DNA of 64,000 nucleotides from the NCBI RefSeq assembly GCF_900113315.1, contig NZ_FOZG01000001.1, forward strand, positions 1,612,001 to 1,676,000. The letters run 5' to 3'. The notes under the pieces were generated by a model. It saw only the letters and a list, made by a program, of their open reading frames with translations, did not search any database and was not told the DNA's origin. Each line of letters starts with the position of its first letter. The stretch's first letter is position 1. The translations under genes were made by a program, and so were the position numbers. The DNA comes from Sphingomonas jatrophae (GTDB lineage: Bacteria; Pseudomonadota; Alphaproteobacteria; Sphingomonadales; Sphingomonadaceae). This document shows, in pieces, positions 1 to 34,576 of the stretch.

Positions 1-302
1 GGCACCGTCTGGCGCCCCTGCGTGTTGATCTGGAGGCCGGGCGCAATCACCGACAGGTTGCGGATGCTGGTGATGCGCAGGTCGGTCAGCTGCGCGGCGG
101 TGACGGCGGTGACCGCGACGGGCACGTTCTGGAGATTTTCCTCGCGCCGCTGCGCGGTGACGACGATGTCCTGCAGCGCGTTCGCCTCGGCCGGCTGCTC
201 GCTCGGCACCGGCGTGGGAGCGGAGGCGGGTTGCGCCCAGGCCGCCGACGCGCCGAACACCGAAACGCCCGCCAGCAGCGGTGCAAGGGCCATCGCCTTC
301 AT
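1..302 (-). CDS. TonB-dependent receptor, N-terminal part (runs off the window)
   Basis: Outer-membrane active-transport receptor. Only about the first 100 residues lie in the window; the rest continues beyond base 1. Translating the minus strand from the ATG at 302 gives a Sec signal peptide (MKAMALAPLLAGVSVFGAS, ending in AWAQ), a short Pro/Ala-rich linker, then the TonB-box and plug start DIVVTAQRREENLQNVPVAV, which is the usual opening of sphingomonad receptors. A purine-rich ribosome site (GGGAGAG) precedes the start. It is divergent from the amidohydrolase gene at 636. Its substrate cannot be judged from this fragment, but its position next to a degradation island fits uptake of the island's substrate. 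Confidence 0.85.
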   Translation of the reverse strand, partial: MKAMALAPLLAGVSVFGASAAWAQPASAPTPVPSEQPAEANALQDIVVTAQRREENLQNVPVAVTAVTAAQLTDLRITSIRNLSVIAPGLQINTQGRQTV

Positions 303-635: not shown

Positions 636-2390
636 ATGAAACTCGGTTTTCTCATCAAGAACGGCACCGTCGTCGACGGTACGGGCGCGCCGGCCTATCG
701 CGCGGACGTTCGCGTGACGGACGACGTGATCAGCGAGATCGGCCCCGACCTGGAGCGCCGCGGGCGCGAGCAGGTGATCGACGCGACCGGCTGTTACGTG
801 GCGCCAGGGTTCATGGAAACGCACAACCATTTCGACGCGCCGATGTGGTGGCTGCCCTCGATGGAGCCGATGCCCGGCTACGGTGTCACGACCTCGATCA
901 ACGGCAATTGCGGTTTCGGCGCGGCGCCGATCAGCGCCGATCCTGCGGTGAAGGCGGAGGCGGTGAAGATCTTCTCCTTCTTCGAGGATATTCCGGAGAA
1001 GCCCTTCCTTGAGCGGCTGCCATGGGACTGGCAGCGGTGGAGCGAATATCGCGCCTCGCTGGAGCGCAACGTCAAGCTGCCGCTCAACTTCGCGGCCTAT
1101 TGCGGGCACATCCCGCTGCGCCTGACGGTGATGGGGCTGGAGGCGTGGGATCGCGCCGCGACGCCGGACGAGATCGCCCGCATGGCCGAGCTGCTCGACG
1201 ACGCGCTGGGCGCAGGCGCGATCGGCCTGTCGACCAACTTGCTCGACAATGACGGGCAGGATCGGCCAATCCTGACCAAGAAGGCGGACGATGCCGAGTG
1301 GAGTGCGCTGCTCGACGTGCTGGAGCGGCATCCGGGCAAGGTGCTGCAGGTGATCGTCGATTACGTCATGCGCGTCGATGCGCCGCAATCGATGGAGCGC
1401 GTCACGCGGCTGGTGCGCGGCCGCAATGTGCGCGTGCAGGTGACCGGCGCGGTGCCGACGCTCGCCTTCCAGGATCGGCTCGTCTCAGGCGCGCTCGACA
1501 TGCACGAGGCGCGCAAGGCCGAGGGACTGGACGTGTGGGCGGGCTATCATCACGTCGCCTCGACGATCCTGATCGGCTTCATCAACTCGCTCGTCTGGGC
1601 GCAGACCAACAATTACGTCTGGAACGAGATCATCGAGGAGCGCGACGAGCAAAAGAAGCTCGCCATGCTGGCCGACCCGGAATGGCGCGCGCGGGCACGC
1701 GCCTCATGGGACAGCATCCGCGACGTCTCGCGCGCCAAGAGCCCCGATGCGTTCGAGTTGTTCGACAGCGAGACCAATGCCGGGCCGACGGGCATCCTGC
1801 TCAGCCAGTTTATGCGCGAGCGCGGCTACGATCATCCGTCGGATGCGCTGGCCGACTGGGTGATCGACAATGGCGTGCACTCCAACCTGCGCATGGAGGA
1901 AGCCGCCAAGCATGACGCGGCGATGCGCTATGTGTTCGATGATCCGAAGGCGATCGGCAACATCTCGGACGCAGGCGCGCACGGCAAGATGTTCTGCGGC
2001 ATCGGCGACAATGTGCTGCTGCTCACCCGCCATGTCCGCGACAAGAACGACCTGACCATCGAACAGGCGGTGCATATCCTGACCGGCCGCATCGCCGACT
2101 TCTTCAACCTGCTGCCCGAGCGCGGCACGCTGCACGTCGGCAAGAAGGCGGACATCACCGTGTTCGACCTCGACGAGATCGAACGGCGGCCCGAATTCAA
2201 GCGGTTCGACGTGCCGGACGGGGAGGGCGGCGTCACCTATCGCTACAGCCGCGATCCGGCCCCGATGCGGTTGACCCTCGTCAATGGCGAGGCGACCTTT
2301 GTGCGCGGCGAGTTCACCGGCAAGTTTCCGGGCAGGATCGTCACGGCGGAGGCCCCCGGCCGCACCGCGCAGCTTCAGGCCGCAGAATAA
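636..2390 (+). CDS. Amidohydrolase, N-acyl-D-amino-acid deacylase family (copy 1)
   Basis: Metal-dependent amidohydrolase of the D-aminoacylase-like family, 584 aa, probably cytoplasmic. The TIM-barrel metal motif is ETHNHFDAP (His63-x-His65), followed by the family signature NGNCGFGAAP with Cys92, a ligand in D-aminoacylases; near the C-terminus SDAGAHGKM supplies the conserved Asp. The ATG at 636 is chosen because GGAGG lies five bases upstream; an in-frame ATG at 570 has no such site. The family hydrolyses N-acyl-D-amino acids, but many sphingomonad members sit in degradation clusters with unknown substrates, so the actual amide, lactam or cyclic imide is not known. It is closely similar to and the same length as the gene at 3355-5109, and is followed after 25 bases by the COQ4-like gene, probably in one operon. 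Confidence 0.85.
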   Translation: MKLGFLIKNGTVVDGTGAPAYRADVRVTDDVISEIGPDLERRGREQVIDATGCYVAPGFMETHNHFDAPMWWLPSMEPMPGYGVTTSINGNCGFGAAPISADPAVKAEAVKIFSFFEDIPEKPFLERLPWDWQRWSEYRASLERNVKLPLNFAAYCGHIPLRLTVMGLEAWDRAATPDEIARMAELLDDALGAGAIGLSTNLLDNDGQDRPILTKKADDAEWSALLDVLERHPGKVLQVIVDYVMRVDAPQSMERVTRLVRGRNVRVQVTGAVPTLAFQDRLVSGALDMHEARKAEGLDVWAGYHHVASTILIGFINSLVWAQTNNYVWNEIIEERDEQKKLAMLADPEWRARARASWDSIRDVSRAKSPDAFELFDSETNAGPTGILLSQFMRERGYDHPSDALADWVIDNGVHSNLRMEEAAKHDAAMRYVFDDPKAIGNISDAGAHGKMFCGIGDNVLLLTRHVRDKNDLTIEQAVHILTGRIADFFNLLPERGTLHVGKKADITVFDLDEIERRPEFKRFDVPDGEGGVTYRYSRDPAPMRLTLVNGEATFVRGEFTGKFPGRIVTAEAPGRTAQLQAAE

Positions 2391-2415
2391 GCGGCAGCGA
2401 CCAAGGAGAGCGATG

Positions 2416-3288
2416 ATGGACACCAAGTTGCAGGTCAGCGAGGCCGACCTCGCTTACTATAACGGCGCGGCCAAGGCGCACACGACCGAGAGCTCGACGC
2501 TGATCAGCTCCTCCCCCTATCTCAACAATGCGCAGCTGCGGGAGCTGATCGCGCAGGAGATGCTGCGGCGGAACGGCCCCGATCTGCCCAATACCGCCTT
2601 CATCCCCAATGTCGTCGGGCTGATGAACCAGATGGAGGATTATGCCCGCATCACCCAGCTGTTCGAGGAGGAGAAAGCGCGCCTGCCCGCGTTCAAGGCG
2701 TGGCTGGACGGGCGCAAGAATTCGAACTTCACCATCGAGGAGACCAAGGGCGCGGAGCCGGGCACGCTGCGCGCGGTGATCTACGACTTTCTCGCCAATA
2801 GCGGCTACGACATGGACCATTTCTACAAGGGCATGAAGGTCGAGACGGATCTCGAATTCTACCGCAAGGAACGCGTCCACACGCACGATATCGAGCATAT
2901 GATCACCGGGTTCGAGACGAACCATGGCGGCGAGCTGGCGCTGCTCACCGCCAACAGCCGGGCGATCTATCGCTATTTCACGCCGGAACTGGCCAACTAC
3001 ATGTTCCGCACGCAGACTTACCTTCGCGCCAAGACGATCATGAAGGCGGGCCTGTTCTATCCCGAAAGCGCCGCGCAGATGCAGGATTTCGAGGATATCG
3101 GCGCGGCACAGGGCCGGGCGTGGAAGCATCCGCTCTTCATCGTGCCGTTCCGCGACTATCTCGACTGGCAGGTGCGCGACATCCGCGAGGAATTCGGCAT
3201 CATCGATGTGCTGCCGTCCGGCTACTGGGCGCACACCACCGCATTCAGCGAGGATCCACGGCGCGAGGTGGCACAGGCCGCTGAATAA
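2416..3288 (+). CDS. COQ4-like protein
   Basis: A 290-aa protein with the exact COQ4 signature HDxxH-x11-E: His157-Asp158-Ile-Glu-His161 and Glu173 (RVHTHDIEHMITGFE). COQ4 binds a metal through this motif and acts on the head group of ubiquinone precursors in eukaryotes and some bacteria. Here the gene is not among ubiquinone genes but between two amidohydrolases, so I infer a related metal-dependent reaction on a degradation intermediate. The protein is longer than typical COQ4 (about 230-265 aa), with an N-terminal helical extension of roughly 60 residues. Two adjacent ATGs exist (2413, 2416); 2416 has better spacing from AGGAGAG. Family assignment is firm from the motif; function is open. 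Confidence 0.75.
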   Translation: MDTKLQVSEADLAYYNGAAKAHTTESSTLISSSPYLNNAQLRELIAQEMLRRNGPDLPNTAFIPNVVGLMNQMEDYARITQLFEEEKARLPAFKAWLDGRKNSNFTIEETKGAEPGTLRAVIYDFLANSGYDMDHFYKGMKVETDLEFYRKERVHTHDIEHMITGFETNHGGELALLTANSRAIYRYFTPELANYMFRTQTYLRAKTIMKAGLFYPESAAQMQDFEDIGAAQGRAWKHPLFIVPFRDYLDWQVRDIREEFGIIDVLPSGYWAHTTAFSEDPRREVAQAAE

Positions 3289-3308: not shown

Positions 3309-3345
3309 AAAAGGGGCGGCGTCCACTGCGGACGCCGCCCCTTTT
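3309..3345. terminator. Bidirectional intrinsic terminator
   Basis: Perfect inverted repeat AAAAGGGGCGGCGTCC, loop ACTGC, GGACGCCGCCCCTTTT. The A-run on one flank and T-run on the other make it functional in both directions, between the convergent COQ4-like and amidohydrolase copy 2 genes. Confidence 0.92.
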
Positions 3346-3354
3346 GCATGCGGG

Positions 3355-5109
3355 CTATTCCGCGGCCTGCGCGAACGCCTCGGCTGTCTCGTAACCGGCA
3401 ATGCGGCCGGGATAGGCGCCCGTGAAGCTGCCGCCGTCGAAGATCGGCTCGCCATGCACCAAAGTGATGCGCATCGGCGCGGCATCGCGCGTATAGCGAT
3501 ATCCGCGGCCGCCCGATCCGTCTGGCACGTCATACTCCTTGATCATCGGCCGCCGCTCGATCTCGTCGATGTGCCACACCGCGATGTCGGCGCTCTTGCC
3601 CTCGGCGATGTGGCCGCGGTCCGAAAGACCGAAGAACTTCGCCAGCTTGCCCGTCAGATTATACACCGCCGTCTCGACCGACAGATGCGTGTTGTCGCGC
3701 GCGAAGCTGTTGATCAGGTCGATATGGTCGCCGATGCCGCACAACATCTGCGCATGCGCGCCCGAATCCGACACGTTGCCGATCGCATATTCATCGTTGA
3801 ACAGGTCGACGATCTGCTGGTGCGAGGCGAGCGACATGTTGAAGCCGAGCGTGGAGCCGATGCCATTTTCCAGCACCCAGTCCGCCAGCACGTCGGACGG
3901 GTGCGTGTTGCCGCCGCGCGCGTCGATCACGTCTCGGAAGGTCACGTCGGAGCCGTAGGGCCCGACACGATACTGGCTGTCGCGCATGATCACCGTCTCG
4001 GGCTTCCGGAACATCGCCTGGGGATACATGTCCTCCCACGATGCCCGCGCCCGCGCGCGCCAATCCTCGCTCGCCAGCATCTCCAGCTTGCGCGCGGCAT
4101 TGGCCTCGCGCGCCAGCTCCGCCCAGGCCAGATTGTTGATCTGCGCGAAGGTGAGGGGGCTGTTGAAGTTGATCATCGTCGCCGGCGGCACGTGCGTGAA
4201 GGCGGTGTAGAGCGGCAGCCCCTCACGCTTGTAGCGCTCATGCTCGTCGATCAGCGGGCCGATGCCGCGTGCGATCTGATAGGACAGGAACGGGACGCCG
4301 CCCCAGAGCGTGCGGAACTTGCGATGCTTCACCAGCGGCTCGAACCGCTTCATGTCCTCGACGCCGACGAACTTCTGGAAGGAGGAGATGACGATCTCGA
4401 ACGTCTTTTCCGGATAGTCGTCGAGCACGTCGAACAGCGCGGCGAACTCCTTGTCCTCGGCCAGCAGCGACGGCACCGGATTGCCCTGCGCGTCATAATC
4501 CAGCGTGTTGCTGGAAAAGCCGATCGCGCCCGCATCCAGCGCCTCGCGCAGCATCGCCGCCATTTTCGCGATCTCGTCGTCGGTCGCCGCGCGCGTGGTC
4601 GCGTCGATGCCCATCGCGGCGAGGCGGAGCGCCTGGTGGCCGCAGTAGAATTCGAAGTTGATCGGCACCTTCAGATGGCGCTGCATCGATGCGCGATATT
4701 CGCCCCACGTCTTCCAGTCCCACGGCAGCTGCGAGTGGAAGGGTTCCAGCGGGATGTCCTCGAAGAAGGAGAAGATGCCGATCATCGCATCGCGCGCTTC
4801 CTTCGTCTCGGGCACGGGGGCCGCGCCGAAGCCGCAATTGCCGTTGATCGAGGTGGTGATGCCATAGCCCGGCAGCGGGAACATGTTGGGCATCCACCAC
4901 ATCGGCGCATCATAGTGATTGTGCGTCTCGATGAAGCCCGGCGTCACGTAGCAGCCGGTCGCGTCCACCACGCGCTCCACGCCCTGGCGCTCCAGACCGG
5001 CCGCCACCGCGACGATCTTTCCGCCCGACACGCGCACGTCCGCCTTGAACGGCGGATTATTCTGCCCGTCGATGACGGTGCCGCCCTTGATCAGGATGTT
5101 GTAGCTCAT
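3355..5109 (-). CDS. Amidohydrolase, N-acyl-D-amino-acid deacylase family (copy 2)
   Basis: Paralogue of the gene at 636-2390, the same length (584 aa) and collinear throughout: ETHNHYDAP with His63 and His65, and NGNCGFGAAP with Cys92 at identical positions. It is expected to be a metal-dependent hydrolase of an acylated amine, amide or related C-N bond. The start at 5109 (MSYNILIKGG) follows GGAGAGG; a much longer upstream reading frame is antisense to the TetR gene and is not used. It is convergent with the COQ4-like gene and divergent from the TetR gene at 5254, which is the most likely local regulator. Two copies retained this close together suggest different chain or stereochemical preferences rather than redundancy. 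Confidence 0.85.
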   Translation of the reverse strand: MSYNILIKGGTVIDGQNNPPFKADVRVSGGKIVAVAAGLERQGVERVVDATGCYVTPGFIETHNHYDAPMWWMPNMFPLPGYGITTSINGNCGFGAAPVPETKEARDAMIGIFSFFEDIPLEPFHSQLPWDWKTWGEYRASMQRHLKVPINFEFYCGHQALRLAAMGIDATTRAATDDEIAKMAAMLREALDAGAIGFSSNTLDYDAQGNPVPSLLAEDKEFAALFDVLDDYPEKTFEIVISSFQKFVGVEDMKRFEPLVKHRKFRTLWGGVPFLSYQIARGIGPLIDEHERYKREGLPLYTAFTHVPPATMINFNSPLTFAQINNLAWAELAREANAARKLEMLASEDWRARARASWEDMYPQAMFRKPETVIMRDSQYRVGPYGSDVTFRDVIDARGGNTHPSDVLADWVLENGIGSTLGFNMSLASHQQIVDLFNDEYAIGNVSDSGAHAQMLCGIGDHIDLINSFARDNTHLSVETAVYNLTGKLAKFFGLSDRGHIAEGKSADIAVWHIDEIERRPMIKEYDVPDGSGGRGYRYTRDAAPMRITLVHGEPIFDGGSFTGAYPGRIAGYETAEAFAQAAE

Positions 5110-5234: not shown

Positions 5235-5253
5235 CAATGGTCAAGTGCAATCC

Positions 5254-5814
5254 ATGAAGGCCGCGCCGCATCACATGCGCGATGTCGCGCAGGCCAATTA
5301 CGAGCGGCTGATCGAGGTCGCCCGCGCCGCGCTGGCCGCCGATCCCGCCTCGTCGCTCAATTCGATCGCCAAGACGGCAGGCGTGGGGCCGGGCACGCTC
5401 TATCGCCATTTTCCGACGCGCGGCGCGCTGATCGTCGCGGTCTACCGGGCCGAGCTCGAGCAGGTCATCACCATCGCGCGCGATCTCGGCGAGCGGCTGA
5501 CCCCGGTCGAGGCGCTGCGCGCCTGGTGCCACCGGCTGGTCGAGCTGGCGCGCCAGCAGCACGGCTTCGTCGAGCTGCTCCATGCCGTCACGACCGAGCA
5601 GGAGCGGCACGAGGCGCATCTGCCGGTGCTGGCGGCGATCTCGCACCTGTTCGACGCATGCCGCGCCGCCGGAGCCATTGCCGGCGACATCGACGCGATC
5701 GACCTGCAACTCGCGCTCAGCTTCATCTGGCACGTCCGCTCGGAGGAGGGCGAGCGGCGAGCGCACCGCGTGGTCGATGTGGTGCTCGACGGCTTCACCG
5801 CGCAATCCGTCTGA
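5254..5814 (+). CDS. TetR family transcriptional regulator
   Basis: DNA-binding one-component regulator of 186 aa. The N-terminal helix-turn-helix is clear at about residues 35-53 (LNSIAKTAGVGPGTLYRHF); the remainder is an all-helical ligand domain. It is divergent from amidohydrolase copy 2, which suggests it controls that gene and itself. The start is uncertain: GTG at 5245, ATG at 5254 or ATG at 5275, with no strong ribosome site. It converges with the carboxylesterase gene ending at 5837. The ligand is probably a pathway metabolite or acyl-CoA (inference). Confidence 0.85.
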   Translation: MKAAPHHMRDVAQANYERLIEVARAALAADPASSLNSIAKTAGVGPGTLYRHFPTRGALIVAVYRAELEQVITIARDLGERLTPVEALRAWCHRLVELARQQHGFVELLHAVTTEQERHEAHLPVLAAISHLFDACRAAGAIAGDIDAIDLQLALSFIWHVRSEEGERRAHRVVDVVLDGFTAQSV

Positions 5815-19447: not shown

Positions 19448-21526
19448 ATGAAGCTGAAGCACCGGGTACTGACGGCGGCTGCCGCGATGGTGCTGGCATC
19501 CGCCGCGGGCGTGGCGGTGTCCCAGCGCGCCGGCACTCCGGACGGGGCAGACTGGGCCGCTTACGGGCGCACCTCGGAGGAGGATCATTACAGCCCGCTG
19601 GAGCAGATCAACGCGGGCAACATTTCCCAGCTCGGCCTTGTCTGGTTGGCTGACGTGGACACGTTCGACAGCTTCACCGCGCCTCTGGCGGTCGGCGGGG
19701 TGCTCTACTTCGGTGTCGGCAACAGCGTCGTGACCGCGATGGACGCCGCCACCGGCAAGCAGCTCTGGCAATATGATCCCGAAGTCGCCAAGGTTGCGGG
19801 CCACAAGATGCGCGCCGGCTGGGGCACGCGCGGCATCGCCTTTTCACAGGGCCGTGTGTTCACCGCCACGCGGGACGGGCGGCTGATCGCGCTGGATGCG
19901 AAGAGCGGCAAACAGCTCTGGTCGGCGATGACGCTCGATCCCAAGGACGACGCCTATATCAGCGGGCCGCCCTGGGTCGCGGGCGACAAGGTGGTGATCG
20001 GTTTCGGCGGTGGCGATTACGGGCCGGTGCGCGGCTATGTCACCGCTTACGACATCGCGACGGGCAAGCAGGCGTGGCGCTTCTACACGGTGCCCGGCGA
20101 TCCGAAGAAGGGCCCGGACGGGGCCGCATCGGACGACGTTATGCCGATGGCAGCGAAGACGTGGACCGGCGAATGGTGGAAGCTGGGCGGCGGCGGCAAT
20201 GTCTGGCACGCCATGGCCTATGACGCCAAATATGATCGCGTGTATCTCGGCACGGGCAATGGCTTTCCGTGGAACCAGAAGATCCGCAGCCCCGGCGGCG
20301 GCGACAATCTGTTCCTGTCGTCGATCGTTGCGCTGGATCGCAAGACGGGCAAGCACGTCTGGCACTATCAGGTTAATCCCGGCAACACCTGGGACTTCAA
20401 CAATGCGATGGACATTCAGCTCGCCACGCTGACCATCGATGGCCGCCCGCGCGATGTTCTTCTCCACGCGCCCAAGAACGGTTTCTTCTACGTACTCGAT
20501 CGCGAGGACGGCAAGCCGATCTCGGCCGGCCAGTTCGCCCCCGCCAACTGGGCAAGCGGCATCGACCTGAAGACCGGCCGCCCCATCGAGAACCCCAAGG
20601 CGCGCTATCCCGGCGGCGAGCCGTTCGTGATGTTCCCGTCGCCCACCGGCGCGCACGCCGTGGAGACGATGTCGTTCAACCGCAAGACCGGCCTCGTCTA
20701 CATTCCGGAGATCGAGCAGCAGCGCGTCGTGGTCGATCCGCCGAACTTGGCGGAGTGGAAGTACAAGCCCGGCATGTTCGTCAATACGGGGCTGGGCGCC
20801 CCGCCGCCGGGCATCAAGCTGCCGGCGGGCGGCAGCAATCTGGTCGCTTATGATCCGGTGGCGGCGAAGGTGCGCTGGAAGGTGCCGCAGAACGGGCTGC
20901 TGAACGGCGGCACCATCACCACGGGCGGCAATCTCGTCTTCCAGGGGCTGAACACCGGCAAGTTCGTCGCCTTCGCAGCGGATACGGGCAAGCAGATCTG
21001 GTCGTTCGATGCGCAGAACGGCATCCTCGGCAATGCCATCACCTACACCGTTCGCGGCAAGCAATATGTCACCGTCATCACCGGCTTCCGCTCCAGCTTC
21101 GCCAACACGCCGAACTGGGACTATCGCGAGCAGCAGCGCCGCGTGCTGACGTTCGCGCTGGGTGGCAAGGCGAAGCTGCCGACGGTGGAGCCGGTGGAGC
21201 AGCCGATCCAGGACGATCCCGATTTCGCCGTCGATGCGGCCAAGGCGAAGATCGGCGCGGGCATCTACAATCAGAGCTGCGTAATTTGCCACGGTGCGGG
21301 CATGATCGCCGGCGGCGCCGCGCCCGATCTGCGCAAGGCGGGCTCGCCGCTCGACGCCGAGGCGTTCAAGGCGATCGTGCATGGCGGAGCGCTGATGGAG
21401 CGCGGCATGGGCAAGTTCGACAATCTGTCCGACGCCGAGCTGGAAGGCATACGCCACTACATCCGGCAACGCGCGCGTGAGACCGCGCCGACCACCCGTG
21501 CGAACACGGTGGCCACGCCGAAGTGA
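19448..21526 (+). CDS. PQQ-dependent quinohemoprotein alcohol dehydrogenase (copy 1)
   Basis: Periplasmic alcohol dehydrogenase of 692 aa: signal peptide (ends near residue 25), an eight-bladed PQQ propeller with repeated W-motifs (e.g. GKQAWRFYTVPGDPKKGPDG), and a C-terminal cytochrome c domain with haem site CVICH at 611-615. The catalytic Asp is Asp316 in NTWDFNNAMD; the residue two positions on is Asn318, not the extra Asp of lanthanide enzymes, so calcium is expected. The vicinal Cys-Cys pair usual in this family is absent: the equivalent segment is KMRAGWGTRG (120-129). First gene of a five-gene operon under site 3. It oxidises a primary or secondary alcohol and passes electrons through haem to the respiratory chain. 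Confidence 0.9.
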   Translation: MKLKHRVLTAAAAMVLASAAGVAVSQRAGTPDGADWAAYGRTSEEDHYSPLEQINAGNISQLGLVWLADVDTFDSFTAPLAVGGVLYFGVGNSVVTAMDAATGKQLWQYDPEVAKVAGHKMRAGWGTRGIAFSQGRVFTATRDGRLIALDAKSGKQLWSAMTLDPKDDAYISGPPWVAGDKVVIGFGGGDYGPVRGYVTAYDIATGKQAWRFYTVPGDPKKGPDGAASDDVMPMAAKTWTGEWWKLGGGGNVWHAMAYDAKYDRVYLGTGNGFPWNQKIRSPGGGDNLFLSSIVALDRKTGKHVWHYQVNPGNTWDFNNAMDIQLATLTIDGRPRDVLLHAPKNGFFYVLDREDGKPISAGQFAPANWASGIDLKTGRPIENPKARYPGGEPFVMFPSPTGAHAVETMSFNRKTGLVYIPEIEQQRVVVDPPNLAEWKYKPGMFVNTGLGAPPPGIKLPAGGSNLVAYDPVAAKVRWKVPQNGLLNGGTITTGGNLVFQGLNTGKFVAFAADTGKQIWSFDAQNGILGNAITYTVRGKQYVTVITGFRSSFANTPNWDYREQQRRVLTFALGGKAKLPTVEPVEQPIQDDPDFAVDAAKAKIGAGIYNQSCVICHGAGMIAGGAAPDLRKAGSPLDAEAFKAIVHGGALMERGMGKFDNLSDAELEGIRHYIRQRARETAPTTRANTVATPK

Positions 21527-23664
21527 GCCGCAGGGACGAACGACGGCAGCTTCGTCTCGGCATTGCCGGACTTGCCCTTGCCACGGCGGGGATCGTCGCT
21601 GTGGCAGGGATGCGGCCCGGCAAGGCGCCGGCGCCGCCGCCGGGCGGGCGGGATTGGGCGCGCTATGGCGGCGATGCCGAGAACCACTACAGCCCGCTCG
21701 ACCAGATCAACCGCGGCAACGTCGCGCGGCTCGGCCTGGCCTGGTCGCTCGATCTGGATGATGGGCCGAACGCCATGAGCGCGCCGCTGGCGGTGGATGG
21801 CATCGTCTATTTCACCACGGGCTACAGCGTGGTGCATGCGGTGGATGCGCGCACGGGGCAGCGGCTGTGGCGGTTCGATCCGCAGGCGCCGGAACGCGCC
21901 GGGCGCAAGATGCGCGCCGCATGGGGCAGCCGCGGCATCGCCTTCGCGCGCGGGCTGATCTTCACGGGCACGATCGACGGCCGGCTGATCGCTGTCGACG
22001 CGAAGACGGGGGCGCAGGCGTGGAGCGTGCAGACGCTGTCGCGCGAGGACGAAAGCTACATCACCGGACCGCCCTGGATCGCAGGCGACAAGGTGGTGAT
22101 CGGCTTTGGCGGCGGCGATTTCGGGCCGGTGCGCGGCTATGTCACCGCATATGACATCTCGACCGGCAAGCAGGCGTGGCGCTTCTACACGGTGCCGGGT
22201 GATCCGAAGAAGGGGCCCGATGGCGCCGCATCGGACGACGTCATGGCGATGGCGGCCAAGACGTGGACGGGCGAGTGGTGGAAGTGGGGCGGCGGCGGCA
22301 CCGCATGGCACGCCATGGCCTATGACCCGAAACGCGAGCTGATCTTTATCGGCACCGGCAACGGTGCACCGTGGAACCGCAAGGTGCGCAGCCCCGGTGG
22401 CGGCGACAACCTGTTCCTGTGTGCGATCATCGCGCTGGATGCCCGCACCGGCAAGTATCGCTGGCACTATCAGGTCAATCCCGGCGAGAGCTGGGACTAT
22501 AATGCGGCAATGGATATCGAGCTCGCAACGCTCGAGATCGACGGTCGCCCGCGTGACGTGGTGATGCAGGCGCCCAAGAACGGCTTTTTCTACGTTCTCG
22601 ACCGCGACACGGGCAAGCTGATCTCTGCCGAGAAGTTCGCCCCCGCCAACTGGGCGACACGGATCGACAAGGCGACCGGGCGGCCGGTGGAGACGCCGTT
22701 CGCCCGCTTCCCCGGCGGCAAGCCGGTGGTGATCTACCCCTCGCCCGTGGGCGCGCATGCGGCCGAGGCGATGGCGTATAGCCCGCGTACGCGGCTGGTC
22801 TACACGCCCGCTTACGATCAGGCGCGCGTCTACGTCGACGCGCCGGATCTTGCGGCTTGGCGGTTCAAGCCGGGGCAGGTGATCAACAATGCAGTCGGCG
22901 TGCCGCCGCCGTCGATGACGCTGCCGCCCGGCAAGAGCGCGCTGCTCGCTTGGGATCCGGCGCGGCAGCGGGAGGTCTGGCGCCTGCCGCAGGTCGGCCA
23001 GCGCACCGGCGGGGCGACGGCGACGGGCGGCGATCTCGTCTTCCAGTCGCAGGCGGACGGGATGTTCAAGGCGTTCGACGCACGCTCCGGCAAGGTGCTG
23101 TGGTCCACGGACATCCAGAATGGCGCGCAGGCGCAGCCGATCACCTATCTCGTGGACGGCCGCCAATATGTCACCGTCATGGCCAGCTGGCGGGCGCAGG
23201 GGCCGAGCGGCCGCGTGCCGGAATATGATTATTACTCTACCCGCCGCCGCGTGCTGACGTTCGCGCTGGACGGCAAGCGGCGCCTGCCGCCCGCCGCGCC
23301 CGTGACCCCGATTGCCGACGATCCCGCGTTCAAGGTCGATCCGGCGCTGGCGGATCGGGGCAAGCCGCTCTTCGCCGCGCATTGCGCCATCTGCCACGGG
23401 CCGGCCACCATGTCCGGCGGCGCCGCGCCCGACCTGAAGCGCGGGGGTGCGCCGCTCGCCTATGACTCGCTCGTGGCCGTGCTGCGCGACGGCATGTTGG
23501 TGCCGCGCGGAATGCCACGCTTCGAGGAACTGGCGCCGACCGACATCGCGGCGCTCCAGCATTACATCCGACAACAGGCGCGCCTCGCGCTGGTCGCGAA
23601 GGGTTCGCCCGCGGCCGCCACGCGCATGGCGCAGGACGCCAGGAGACTCCATGCAGATCAATGA
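21523..23664 (+). CDS. PQQ-dependent quinohemoprotein alcohol dehydrogenase (copy 2)
   Basis: Tandem paralogue of the preceding gene, 713 aa, with GTG start overlapping the previous stop (GTGA). An N-terminal hydrophobic segment after RRDERRQLR could be a signal peptide or uncleaved anchor. PQQ propeller with Asp325 (ESWDYNAAMD), Asn327 at the lanthanide-discriminating position, GTGNG at 277-281, and C-terminal haem site CAICH at 621-625. It too lacks the vicinal Cys-Cys pair (KMRAAWGSRG, 129-138). The two copies may oxidise two different alcohols of the same pathway or successive steps. The end overlaps the start of the FadB/FadJ-like gene by 14 bases. Confidence 0.89.
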   Translation: MSRRDERRQLRLGIAGLALATAGIVAVAGMRPGKAPAPPPGGRDWARYGGDAENHYSPLDQINRGNVARLGLAWSLDLDDGPNAMSAPLAVDGIVYFTTGYSVVHAVDARTGQRLWRFDPQAPERAGRKMRAAWGSRGIAFARGLIFTGTIDGRLIAVDAKTGAQAWSVQTLSREDESYITGPPWIAGDKVVIGFGGGDFGPVRGYVTAYDISTGKQAWRFYTVPGDPKKGPDGAASDDVMAMAAKTWTGEWWKWGGGGTAWHAMAYDPKRELIFIGTGNGAPWNRKVRSPGGGDNLFLCAIIALDARTGKYRWHYQVNPGESWDYNAAMDIELATLEIDGRPRDVVMQAPKNGFFYVLDRDTGKLISAEKFAPANWATRIDKATGRPVETPFARFPGGKPVVIYPSPVGAHAAEAMAYSPRTRLVYTPAYDQARVYVDAPDLAAWRFKPGQVINNAVGVPPPSMTLPPGKSALLAWDPARQREVWRLPQVGQRTGGATATGGDLVFQSQADGMFKAFDARSGKVLWSTDIQNGAQAQPITYLVDGRQYVTVMASWRAQGPSGRVPEYDYYSTRRRVLTFALDGKRRLPPAAPVTPIADDPAFKVDPALADRGKPLFAAHCAICHGPATMSGGAAPDLKRGGAPLAYDSLVAVLRDGMLVPRGMPRFEELAPTDIAALQHYIRQQARLALVAKGSPAAATRMAQDARRLHADQ

Positions 23665-27947: not shown

Positions 27948-28964
27948 TCAGGCCGCCAGCGCGGCGGGTTGGCCGTCGGCCAGGCCAAGGTCGACCAGCC
28001 GTGGCAGCACCGCCTTCTCGAACAGGCGCAGGCTGGCCCAGGACAGGTCCGGGTCGATGCCGCCGAGCAGTGCGTGGAAGGTCAGCTGCCCGCCATTTCC
28101 CAGCGCCTTGGCGATCTCGACGCACTCGTCGGGCGTCACGACCTTGATGTTGGGCATCTTCTTCAGCTCCTCCACCGTCTCGGCCGCGGAGTAGCGGGTG
28201 CTGCCCTCGCCACGCTCCTTGGCCCATTCGGCATAGGTGTTGAACGCATAGGCGATGTGCGGCGCCAGCAACGGCCAGTCCCGCTCGGGATCGTCGCTGA
28301 CGTAGAGGAAGCTCGGGCCGGGGGTCACCAGCTCCTCGGGCGGCGGGAAGCCATGCTTCTCGCGTTCCTCCTTGTAGATGCGGAACAGATCGGGCGTGCC
28401 GGGGAAATATTGATAGCCCTTGCGCGCCGCGCGGAGCGCAGACTTCTCCGTCGATCCGCCCATGTAGATCTTGGGGCCGCCGGGCGTGTAGGGCTTCGGC
28501 GTGACGCGCACAGTGCGGCCGTGATATTCGAACGGCTCGCCCGTCCACGCCTTGGCGCAGGTGTCGAGCGCCTCCGTCTGGATGGCGAGGCGCTTGGACA
28601 TGTCCTTGCCGAACATCTCGAATTCATGCGGTCGGTATCCCATGCCGGCGGTGAAGACGAGCCGCCCCTTCGACAGCAGGTCCAGCACCGCCAGATCCTC
28701 CGCCAGCCGCAGCGGATCGTGCATCGTGACGACCAGCGCCGAGAGGTGGGCGAGGATCGTCTGCGTGCAGCCGAGGATCGATGCCGCCTGGATCATCGAT
28801 GAAGGGCAGTAGCCGCCCTCCGCCCCGTGATGTTCGGCGAGATAGACCTGCTTGAAGCCGAGCTTGTCCGCCCACACCGACTGTTCGATGGCGGTCCGGT
28901 ACAGCGCCTCATGCGGCGCGCCGAACTCGGCGCGGTTCATGTCGTAACGAAGATTGAGTTCCAT
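27948..28964 (-). CDS. Luciferase-like (LLM class) flavin or F420-dependent oxidoreductase
   Basis: 338 aa TIM-barrel enzyme of the bacterial luciferase-like family. The start MELNLRYDMN and the motif YLAEHHG (Glu44-His45-His46) mark the active site; GRLVFTAGMGYRPHEFEMFG and the later GGPKIYMGGSTEKSALRAAR phosphate-binding region are typical. Family members use reduced FMN as monooxygenases, or F420 as hydride carrier. The EHH motif is compatible with either, and the operon is divergent from the Fo synthase gene, which makes a deazaflavin cofactor an attractive but unproven idea; a flavin reductase is also present at 58006. It lies between the tandem CoA-transferase and SnoaL genes. Confidence 0.83.
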   Translation of the reverse strand: MELNLRYDMNRAEFGAPHEALYRTAIEQSVWADKLGFKQVYLAEHHGAEGGYCPSSMIQAASILGCTQTILAHLSALVVTMHDPLRLAEDLAVLDLLSKGRLVFTAGMGYRPHEFEMFGKDMSKRLAIQTEALDTCAKAWTGEPFEYHGRTVRVTPKPYTPGGPKIYMGGSTEKSALRAARKGYQYFPGTPDLFRIYKEEREKHGFPPPEELVTPGPSFLYVSDDPERDWPLLAPHIAYAFNTYAEWAKERGEGSTRYSAAETVEELKKMPNIKVVTPDECVEIAKALGNGGQLTFHALLGGIDPDLSWASLRLFEKAVLPRLVDLGLADGQPAALAA

Positions 28965-31584: not shown

Positions 31585-33927
31585 GTGCGAGACGAACTGA
31601 CCGCCATGCCCGACGAGGAGGCCGCCCACCTGCTGGCGCTGCCGGCGGAGGCCATGCTGGCCGAGGCGGAGGCGTCGACGCTGGCGGTGCACGGCGCTGT
31701 CGTCACCTATTCGCGCAAGGTGTTCGTGCCGCTGACGCGTCTGTGCCGCGATGTCTGCCACTATTGCACCTTCGCCACCACACCGAAGCAACTTGGCGCG
31801 CCCTTCCTCCCGCGCGAGCAGGTGCTGGAGATCGCGCGCGCGGGTGTCGCATCGGGGTGTCGCGAGGCGCTGTTCACGCTCGGCGATCGTCCGGAAGACC
31901 GCTATCCCGCCGCACGCGCAGCGCTGGACGCCGGCGGCCATGCCTCGACGCTTCACCTCCTGCGCGACATGGCGGCGCTCGTCCTGGAAGAGACCGGGCT
32001 GCTGCCGCACCTCAATCCGGGCCTGATGGACGAGGCCGCGCTGAGGATGCTACGGCCGGTCTCCGCCTCCATGGGGCTGATGCTGGAGACGGTGTCGGAG
32101 CGGCTGTCTACGCGCGGTGGTCCGCACTTCGGGTCGCCGGACAAGGCGCCCGCGGCGCGCCTCGCGGTGATCGACGCCGCCGGCCGGGCAGGCGTGCCGT
32201 TCACCACCGGATTGCTGATCGGCATCGGCGAGACGCGGGCCGAACGGCTCGATGCGCTGCACGCCATCCGCACGCTGCACGAGCGGCACGGCCACATCCA
32301 GGAAGTCATCATCCAGAACTTCCGCGCCAAGCCCGGCACGCGGATGGCCTCGCATCCGGAGCCGTCGCTGGCCGACCATGCCTGGACGGTCGCCGCGGCC
32401 CGGCTGGTTCTCGGGCCGGCCATGTCCATCCAGGCGCCGCCCAACCTGCACGCCGCCGAGGCGCTGGCGACGCTGTTGCGCGCGGGCGTGAACGACTGGG
32501 GCGGTGTCTCCCCTGTTACGCCCGATCATGTGAACCCGGAGGCGCCCTGGCCGCACCTCGCCATGCTGGATGCGGCGACGCGCGGGGCGAAGCGGACGCT
32601 GCGCGAGCGGCTGGCCATCGCCCCTGCCTTCGCCAAGGCGCCCACGGCTCGGCTGGAGCCGGCCATCGCGGTGCGGGTGCGCCGTGCCGTCGACGGGCGC
32701 GGCCTGCCTGTGGTGGATGGCTGGCGCCCGGGAACGGACGTGGCGATGCCGTCGCTCGCAGCGGTGGGCAGCAGCGCGGACGCGCGCCGGGTGGACGCCA
32801 TCCTCTCCCGTGGCGAAGCGGGATCGCGTCTCAGCGAAAGCGAGATCGTCCGCCTGTTCGCCGCAGACGGGCCGGAGGTGCCGCGCATCTTCGCCGCAGC
32901 CGACCGGCTGCGCGCGCAAGTGGTGGGCGATACCGTCACCTTCGTCGTCAACCGCAACATCAACTATACCAACATCTGCCTCTACAAATGCGGGTTCTGC
33001 GCCTTCTCCAAGGGCAGCACCAAGGCGATGCGCGGGCCGGCCTATCGGCTCGATCTCGACGAGGTCGGACGGCGCGCGGCCGAGGCGTGGGACCGCGGCG
33101 CGACCGAGGTGTGCCTGCAGGGCGGCATCCACCCCGATTATGACGGCAACACCTACCTGTCCGTGCTGGCGGCGGTGCGCGCTGCCGCGCCCGACATCCA
33201 CATCCACGCTTTCTCGCCGCTGGAGGTGACGCACGGCGCGACGACGCTCGGCCTCCAGCTCGCCGACTATCTGGCGCGGCTGAAGGCGGCGGGGCTGTCG
33301 ACCCTTCCGGGCACTGCGGCGGAGATCCTCGACGACGAAATCCGTGCGATCATCTGCCCCGACAAGCTCGACACCGCGGCGTGGATCGAGGTGATGCGCA
33401 CCGCACACCGTGTCGGCCTGCGCTCCACCGCGACGATCATGTTCGGCCATGCCGACGATTATCGCCACTGGGCGCGACACCTGCTGCGCGTCCGCGACCT
33501 TCAGGCAGAGACCGGCGGCTTCACCGAATTCGTTCCTTTGCCCTTCGTCCACATGGAGGCGCCGATGTGGCGCAAGGGCCAGGTCCGCTCCGGCCCGTCC
33601 GCGCGTGAGGCGCTGCTGATACAGGCGATCGCCCGGATCGTGCTCTACCCGCTCATCCCCAATATTCAGGCGAGCTGGGTCAAGCTGGGCGAGGCGGGCG
33701 CGCGCGCTGCGCTGGACGCCGGCACCAACGACCTTGGCGGCGTGCTGATGGACGAATCGATCACGCGCGCAGCAGGCGGCGTGAACGGCCAGATGTTCGA
33801 TGCCGCGCGCATGGCCGCCGTCGCCGAAGCTGCCGGGCGACCGCTCCGGCAGCGCACCACCCTCTATGCGCCTGTGCGCCGAACCTACTCGGGAGACTTG
33901 AATGACGACTGCCGCTGCATCGCCTGA
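31585..33927 (+). CDS. fbiC: Fo synthase, fused CofG-CofH (FbiC type)
   Basis: 780 aa with two radical-SAM domains that together make Fo, the deazaflavin chromophore of F420, from a pyrimidine precursor and tyrosine. The N-terminal CofG-like domain has the 4Fe-4S motif at Cys54, Cys58 and Cys61 (RLCRDVCHYCTF); the C-terminal CofH-like domain has Cys465, Cys469 and Cys472 (NICLYKCGFCAF). The CofG-then-CofH order is that of actinobacterial FbiC. The GTG at 31585 follows GAGGAGAGG; the earlier in-frame TTG at 31522 falls in the promoter. The 3' end overlaps the F420:NADP oxidoreductase gene by 26 bases. No cofC, cofD or cofE lies in the window, so F420 completion must be encoded elsewhere or Fo itself is used. 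Confidence 0.92.
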   Translation: MRDELTAMPDEEAAHLLALPAEAMLAEAEASTLAVHGAVVTYSRKVFVPLTRLCRDVCHYCTFATTPKQLGAPFLPREQVLEIARAGVASGCREALFTLGDRPEDRYPAARAALDAGGHASTLHLLRDMAALVLEETGLLPHLNPGLMDEAALRMLRPVSASMGLMLETVSERLSTRGGPHFGSPDKAPAARLAVIDAAGRAGVPFTTGLLIGIGETRAERLDALHAIRTLHERHGHIQEVIIQNFRAKPGTRMASHPEPSLADHAWTVAAARLVLGPAMSIQAPPNLHAAEALATLLRAGVNDWGGVSPVTPDHVNPEAPWPHLAMLDAATRGAKRTLRERLAIAPAFAKAPTARLEPAIAVRVRRAVDGRGLPVVDGWRPGTDVAMPSLAAVGSSADARRVDAILSRGEAGSRLSESEIVRLFAADGPEVPRIFAAADRLRAQVVGDTVTFVVNRNINYTNICLYKCGFCAFSKGSTKAMRGPAYRLDLDEVGRRAAEAWDRGATEVCLQGGIHPDYDGNTYLSVLAAVRAAAPDIHIHAFSPLEVTHGATTLGLQLADYLARLKAAGLSTLPGTAAEILDDEIRAIICPDKLDTAAWIEVMRTAHRVGLRSTATIMFGHADDYRHWARHLLRVRDLQAETGGFTEFVPLPFVHMEAPMWRKGQVRSGPSAREALLIQAIARIVLYPLIPNIQASWVKLGEAGARAALDAGTNDLGGVLMDESITRAAGGVNGQMFDAARMAAVAEAAGRPLRQRTTLYAPVRRTYSGDLNDDCRCIA

Positions 33928-34576
33928 CGCGACCATCGCGATCATCGGCGGAACGGGAAAGCTGGGGGCCGCGATCGGACGGCGGCTCGCCAAGGCGGGG
34001 CGGCGCGTGATCCTCGGCTCGCGCTCGGCGGAGAGTGCGCAGGCGAAGGCCGCGGAGCTGGGCTTCGGCCTGACCGGCCTCGGCAATGCCGAGGCGGCGC
34101 AGGCGGGCGACGTGCTGATCGTCACCGTTCCATTCTCGGCACAGGACGCGACCCTGGCGGAGATCGCCCCGCATGCGGTGGGCAAGATCGTCTGCGACAC
34201 GACGGTGCCGCTGGTGCCGCCCAAGGTGATGCGCGTGCAGATGCCGGGCGAGGGCAGCGCGGCGCAGCGGGCGGAAGGATTGCTGGGCGAAGGCGTCACC
34301 GTCGTCTCGGCGTTCCACAATGTCGCCGCGCACAAGCTGGCCACCGACGACGATATCGGCTGCGACGTGCTGGTGTTCGGCGACGACAAGGCAGCGCGGA
34401 GCGTCATCGTCACCCTGGCCGACCAGGCCGGCCTGCGCGGCCTTCACGGCGGTGCGCTCGCCAACTCCGCGGCGGCGGAAGCGCTGACCTCCGTGCTGAT
34501 CTTCCTGAACAAGACCTACAAGGTCGACGGTGCAGGCGTCCGCATCACCGGTGAACTGGTCCCGCCGGCGGACTGA
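33902..34576 (+). CDS. npdG: F420H2:NADP oxidoreductase (Fno/NpdG)
   Basis: 224 aa enzyme with an N-terminal Rossmann dinucleotide site IAIIGGTGKLGAAIGRRLAK (GGTGKLG at 16-22) and the characteristic continuation RRVILGSRSAESA. The C-terminal half (AFHNVAAHKLA, then FGDDKAARSVIVTLADQAGL) matches Fno/NpdG. It moves hydride between NADPH and F420 (or Fo), feeding F420-dependent reductases. The start is preceded by GGGAGA and lies inside the fbiC coding sequence, in another frame, so the two are almost certainly coexpressed. Its presence with fbiC makes a deazaflavin reduction system the plainest reading of this locus. Confidence 0.9.
   Translation: MTTAAASPDATIAIIGGTGKLGAAIGRRLAKAGRRVILGSRSAESAQAKAAELGFGLTGLGNAEAAQAGDVLIVTVPFSAQDATLAEIAPHAVGKIVCDTTVPLVPPKVMRVQMPGEGSAAQRAEGLLGEGVTVVSAFHNVAAHKLATDDDIGCDVLVFGDDKAARSVIVTLADQAGLRGLHGGALANSAAAEALTSVLIFLNKTYKVDGAGVRITGELVPPAD

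Follow-up and report, generated by a model that had tools for sequence, protein, structure and literature searches.

A COQ4-like subfamily in sphingomonad TonB-receptor/hydrolase cassettes: candidate metal-dependent catabolic enzymes for steroid- or terpenoid-like intermediates

The locus and its COQ4-like protein

The window analyzed here, the whole stretch of 64,000 nucleotides from Sphingomonas jatrophae, contains on its forward strand an open reading frame at positions 2416–3288 that was judged genuine and that encodes a protein of 290 residues, referred to below as COQ4L. A second possible start, an in-frame ATG, lies at 2413. As the earlier note had described, the gene sits between two amidohydrolases. 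The features of the locus are the following.

3–302, minus strand: start of a divergent TonB-dependent receptor gene (full gene at L009 9918–12302), part of a TonB-amidohydrolase-COQ4L cassette
636–2390, plus strand: Amidohydro_3 gene (D-aminoacylase-like), 584 aa, Pfam 108 bits, 25 bp upstream of COQ4L
2403–2409, plus strand: AAGGAGA, resembling a ribosome-binding site, read from the sequence 5′ of the COQ4L start
2416–3288, plus strand: COQ4-like protein (COQ4L), 290 aa, with open reading frame and ribosome-binding site, a predicted COQ4 fold, and assigned to a clade of its own
2491–2526, plus strand: subfamily N-terminal block SSTLISSSPYLN, residues 26–37, pattern S-x-S-x-[YFW]-L-N
2884–2934, plus strand: putative metal motif HDxxH-x11-E, HDIEHMITGFETNHGGE, residues 157–173, including the subfamily-specific E160
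3313–3341: perfect inverted repeat with 12-bp arms (3313–3324 and 3330–3341), lying between COQ4L and the convergent amidohydrolase gene
3355–5109, minus strand: second Amidohydro_3 gene, convergent, 584 aa, Pfam 104 bits, product starting MSYNILIKGG
5245–5814, plus strand: TetR-type regulator (Pfam TetR_N, TetR_C_43)

Given the short spacing and the shared strand, the first amidohydrolase and COQ4L are probably transcribed as one operon. The inverted repeat is probably a terminator shared by the two convergent genes; it is missing from the output of a terminator scan with a T-run rule, and promoter and terminator scans of the window yielded no more than chance. The GC content of the COQ4L gene is 61% against a gene mean of 68%, the lowest of 49, and was considered and rejected as proof of recent transfer; since all eight paralogs in this genome lie below the GC content of their own loci, the low value probably reflects composition.

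The segment HDIEHMITGFETNHGGE matches HDxxH-x11-E exactly, a match expected 0.0009 times per 290 residues from composition, and the focal gene is the only called gene in the window with this motif. The motif residues show no variation in 49 of 49 aligned homologs, and the motif was found in all 104 COQ4L proteins. The Pfam Coq4 model (PF05019) scores the focal protein at 17.6 bits, under the curated cut-off of 22.9, a value that some near relatives exceed (26.5 bits at L135 and 41.1 bits at L145). A sequence search of the PDB returned two cyanobacterial COQ4 homologs as the only significant matches, and the same two emerge from structure comparison: an AlphaFold2 model built from 49 homologs (pLDDT 85.9, pTM 0.83) aligns to Alr8543 (6e12; Z 19.1, 210 residues) and to Npun02000094 (3msq; Z 17.8, about 210 residues), all other Foldseek matches being at noise level. 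We are therefore confident that the predicted fold of the focal protein is that of COQ4. By helix geometry, residue 160 could face the metal.

COQ4L as a separate and multiplied subfamily

In a tree of 147 bacterial proteins, with eukaryotic COQ4 left out, a single branch with a support of 99 splits 102 COQ4L sequences from 45 other bacterial COQ4 sequences. The stem branch is long, so the root and the exact relation of COQ4L to COQ4 are unsure. Two sequence marks follow the same division: position four of HDxxH is acidic (HDxEH) in 102/104 COQ4L proteins versus 0/49 other COQ4 proteins, and the N-terminal pattern occurs in 99/104 versus 0/49. The subfamily is also longer, with a median of 292 aa compared with 244 aa, and the claim of an exact COQ4 motif in a longer COQ4-like protein stands for the subfamily as well as for the window gene. 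On the tree and these marks, the focal protein is assigned to the distinct clade COQ4L and is not a COQ4 ortholog. Separately, divergent COQ4-like proteins from another family of the class (L152–L154) carry the motif variant HDLWHITAGYETTALHE and make up one more distinct branch in the tree.

The S. jatrophae genome (4.06 Mb, 99.99% complete) contains eight COQ4L genes. Two of the paralogs, identical proteins on different contigs, are 71% identical to the focal protein, and the remaining ones are 28–42% identical. The loci of these genes are catabolic regions of the TonB-receptor/SDR/ACAD type, and ubiE, ubiB, coaBC, and dut are absent near all eight copies, so that the observation of a gene lying away from ubiquinone genes extends to the whole set. 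The single gene singled out by the earlier note is real and not a lone case, being one member of a large family. The two identical copies (L012 8824–9734 on contig C5 and L013 9432–10342 on contig C6) are 98.9% identical in DNA, and the high identity ends at the gene borders, as though the gene alone had been copied or converted.

Distribution is patchy. COQ4L occurs in 6 of 98 relatives, S. jatrophae counted among the six, and among 397 genomes from the phylum a high-scoring full-length match was found only in S. jatrophae and in one other genome, G050. Across 19 carrier genomes, each has one to nine copies. Eight paralogs in one genome, together with the small share of relatives that have any, indicate an accessory rather than a housekeeping gene.

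Partner genes and steroid-type neighbors

The metal-site blocks HxH, NCG, GH, and D are kept in the partner Amidohydro_3 proteins, as is visible in the sequences and in an alignment to 3gip. The pairing recurs well beyond the window. An amidohydrolase lies within 7 kb of 82/104 COQ4L genes (87 loci) and within 400 bp of 57/104. When all copies in the 19 carrier genomes are counted, 32 of 81 COQ4L genes have an amidohydrolase within 1 kb versus 0.67 expected, a figure to be read with the reservation that the adjacency tests count related genomes as if each were an independent case and so overstate significance; in 23 of these 32 pairs the amidohydrolase is upstream on the same strand. Other COQ4L subclades adjoin AtuA (454 bits), a TauD dioxygenase, or a Gfo/Idh/MocA oxidoreductase. 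AtuA belongs to acyclic terpene utilization. On plasmid p1 of Novosphingobium sp. ES2-1 the NCBI annotation reads D-aminoacylase, Coq4, TonB, Coq4, AtuA, FAD oxidoreductase in that order. The two ES2-1 COQ4L genes (L185 9998–10876 and 13516–14334), although they sit in a degradation cassette, are publicly annotated under “ubiquinone biosynthetic process”; this label is probably a misannotation made by transfer, and labels of this kind on COQ4L are probably misleading.

A comparison of cassettes argues for a working COQ4L-amidohydrolase pair. S. montanisoli has the cassette of the window, with a TonB receptor 79% and an amidohydrolase 85% identical to those of the window, and C. estronivorus has an amidohydrolase-COQ4L pair in which the amidohydrolase is 78% identical. 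The COQ4L proteins in both cassettes, however, are closest to another branch and are 35–36% identical to the window protein, whose true ortholog (85%) is at a different site in S. montanisoli. The slot has thus been kept while its COQ4L occupant was exchanged for a distant paralog.

Novosphingobium-type COQ4L loci include as neighbors a relative of the 3-ketosteroid dehydrogenase KstD, KshA_C Rieske oxygenases, a P450 with ferredoxin, OYE, and SDRs. The KstD-like proteins match the 3-oxosteroid 1-dehydrogenase 7p18 with an E-value of 1e-142 and score 544 bits against the NCBIfam equivalog, under its cut-off of 789. A KstD-like or KshA gene lies within 10 kb of 21 of 81 COQ4L genes versus 3.2 expected, and among the 98 relatives, an unbiased set, all six genomes with COQ4L have KshA_C versus 5 of the 92 without COQ4L (Fisher p = 4e-7); membership in KshA_C or the KstD-like group is no proof of steroid substrates, and KshA_C may include other Rieske oxygenases. 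The association of COQ4L with steroid genes is a correlation.

Several carriers have been linked to steroid-type compounds. Sphingobium sp. Chol11, which degrades bile salts (PMC5754482), carries four COQ4L genes, with COQ4L genes on NZ_OBMU01000002.1, and the five KshA found here in its genome agree with the published number (PMC8399759). TomTYG74 and TomTYG65, both α-tomatine degraders (PMC10653915), are carriers as well, as are strains named estronivorans or estronivorus. In Caenibius tardaugens, D-aminoacylases belong to the cholate-induced genes (PMC12882949). The cluster of the window itself consists of genes of a general CoA-dependent degradation type (CoA-transferase, acyl-CoA dehydrogenase, P450, PQQ-dehydrogenase), and KshA and KstD are absent from it. 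The ES2-1 strain described above is an estradiol degrader.

Elsewhere in the window, two adjacent PQQ-dependent dehydrogenases (19448–21526 and 21610–23664, plus strand) each have a C-terminal cytochrome c domain. A CofG/CofH-type FO synthase (31585–33927, plus strand; radical-SAM and CofH_C), a luciferase-like oxidoreductase (27948–28964, minus strand), and an F420-dependent NADP-reductase-like gene (33902–34576, plus strand; named from its first residues only) place coenzyme F420 machinery within a sphingomonad degradation cluster.

Proposed function and relation to known systems

Taken together, the COQ4L neighborhoods point rather to steroid- or terpenoid-like polycyclic substrates than to the aromatic or quinone-like ones that the earlier note had envisaged. 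Its broader idea of a catabolic COQ4 homolog distinct from ubiquinone synthesis is supported by the eight copies, the separate clade with its marks, the statistically extreme pairing with amidohydrolases, and the tracking of KshA- and KstD-type genes. Nothing relevant on a catabolic Coq4, and no published description, came out of the literature searches, in keeping with the view that such a role appears undescribed. The reading that we favor on balance is that COQ4L proteins are metal-dependent catabolic enzymes for steroid- or terpenoid-like intermediates, working within sphingomonad TonB-receptor/hydrolase cassettes. Its parts differ in strength: a catabolic rather than a ubiquinone role is highly probable, metal-dependent catalysis is likely, and a substrate of the steroid/terpenoid type is somewhat better than an even prospect.

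In Alr8543 the motif binds Mg and a groove holds a fatty acid (PMC9774615). By extension, COQ4L would bind a bulky, hydrophobic steroid- or terpenoid-like intermediate in the equivalent groove and would catalyze a single conserved reaction, acting on the partner enzyme's substrate or on its product. Human COQ4 is reported to exchange a ring carboxyl for a hydroxyl in one step (PMC11495197), and by analogy the step could be an oxidative decarboxylation/hydroxylation at a carboxylated carbon, with the hydrophobic acid held near the metal; oxidative decarboxylation specifically is offered only tentatively. Equally speculative is a wider proposal, in which COQ4L would be a new class of metal-dependent catabolic enzymes carrying out an unrecognized step of steroid/terpenoid breakdown in Sphingomonadaceae (such as oxidative decarboxylation or C–C cleavage) on a substrate made ready by the partner hydrolase or AtuA-type enzyme; the class could belong to the bile-acid side-chain route of Chol11.

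Of the alternatives, the one that survives best, though we consider it unlikely, is that COQ4L is a non-catalytic or mainly structural helper that presents a greasy substrate to its partner, be it amidohydrolase, AtuA, TauD, or Gfo/Idh. COQ4 itself was long regarded as an organizer of the CoQ complex. A helper would fit the constancy of COQ4L beside partners that differ among subclades, the survival of the cassette slot through exchange for a paralog only 36% identical, and a COQ4-fold groove that holds a hydrophobic ligand; the invariance of the four metal-motif residues H157, D158, H161, and E173 across the aligned homologs and of the motif across the subfamily speaks against it, as does the nearly fixed extra acid within the motif, for which a pure scaffold would have no need.

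A catabolic metal enzyme acting on aromatic, quinone-like, or other xenobiotic intermediates is less probable still. The substrate of human COQ4 is a carboxylated aromatic ring (PMC11495197), and the general character of the window cluster, with no annotated steroid-specific gene, would suit such a role, but the nearby and co-occurring KstD-like and KshA genes, the known steroid-degrading carriers, and the AtuA partners all favor steroid- or terpenoid-like compounds.

As for ubiquinone, S. jatrophae lacks UbiD, a gap shared by 54 of 58 genomes of the same family, whereas outside this family most genomes of the order carry it. UbiD, Pfam Coq4, and COQ4L are all missing from 28 of these 58, for which reason COQ4L was rejected as the general UbiD replacement of the family, some other enzyme presumably performing the C1 decarboxylation there. 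By these searches, the 28 genomes carry out ubiquinone C1 decarboxylation without a known enzyme. At one S. montanisoli locus (L071 5723–10873) the 85% ortholog of the focal protein follows coaBC by 154 bp in a ubiE-ubiB-coaBC run, and an amidohydrolase is absent beside it. This is the only one of 87 COQ4L loci with ubiE/ubiB nearby, about one being expected by chance in a rough count, and it leaves a ubiquinone role unlikely rather than nil. The earlier note would have taken the gene for a displaced ubiquinone gene if it complemented ubiquinone synthesis and were the only one of COQ4 type in its genome; there are seven others. That COQ4L performs the missing C1 decarboxylation in a UbiD-less genome is thus very improbable, the lack of UbiD and the S. 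montanisoli run being outweighed by the eight copies in catabolic cassettes, the relatives that manage without all three proteins, a ubiE/ubiB neighborhood possible by chance, and a clade distinct from other COQ4 proteins.

The multiplication of a COQ4 relative into a family beside steroid-breakdown-type genes suggests that an old fold has been reused for the degradation of large greasy molecules. The chemistry of COQ4 was assigned only recently, and a simple bacterial branch that reaches nine copies in a genome and is tied to defined catabolic cassettes would therefore give a handle on the catalysis of the fold. COQ4L proteins would also be candidates for the missing steps of sphingomonad steroid degradation, the side-chain route of Chol11 being stated as unknown (PMC8399759).

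Among known systems, D-aminoacylase (1m7j) and N-acyl-D-glutamate deacylase (3gip) represent the family of the partner genes. Their HxH, NCG, GH, and DAxxH blocks align with those of the partners, which differ in their low identity, their additional length of about 100 aa, and their setting in a degradation cassette. COQ4L co-occurs and clusters with the genes of KstD/KshA steroid catabolism in sphingomonads such as Chol11, and is absent from the steroid pathways as described in the papers found. The closest structures are the cyanobacterial COQ4 homologs Alr8543, solved with Mg and oleic acid bound, and Npun02000094; unlike COQ4L, to which they are about 20% identical, they have W or Y at the position of E160 and no N-terminal block. 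With COQ4 itself (PF05019; human COQ4, yeast Coq4), COQ4L shares the predicted fold and HDxxH-x11-E at the equivalent position. It differs from COQ4 in about 50 extra residues, the N-terminal block, the acid of HDxEH, a separate clade, and a focal member below the Pfam cut-off, and in its several copies, patchy distribution, and catabolic cassette setting.
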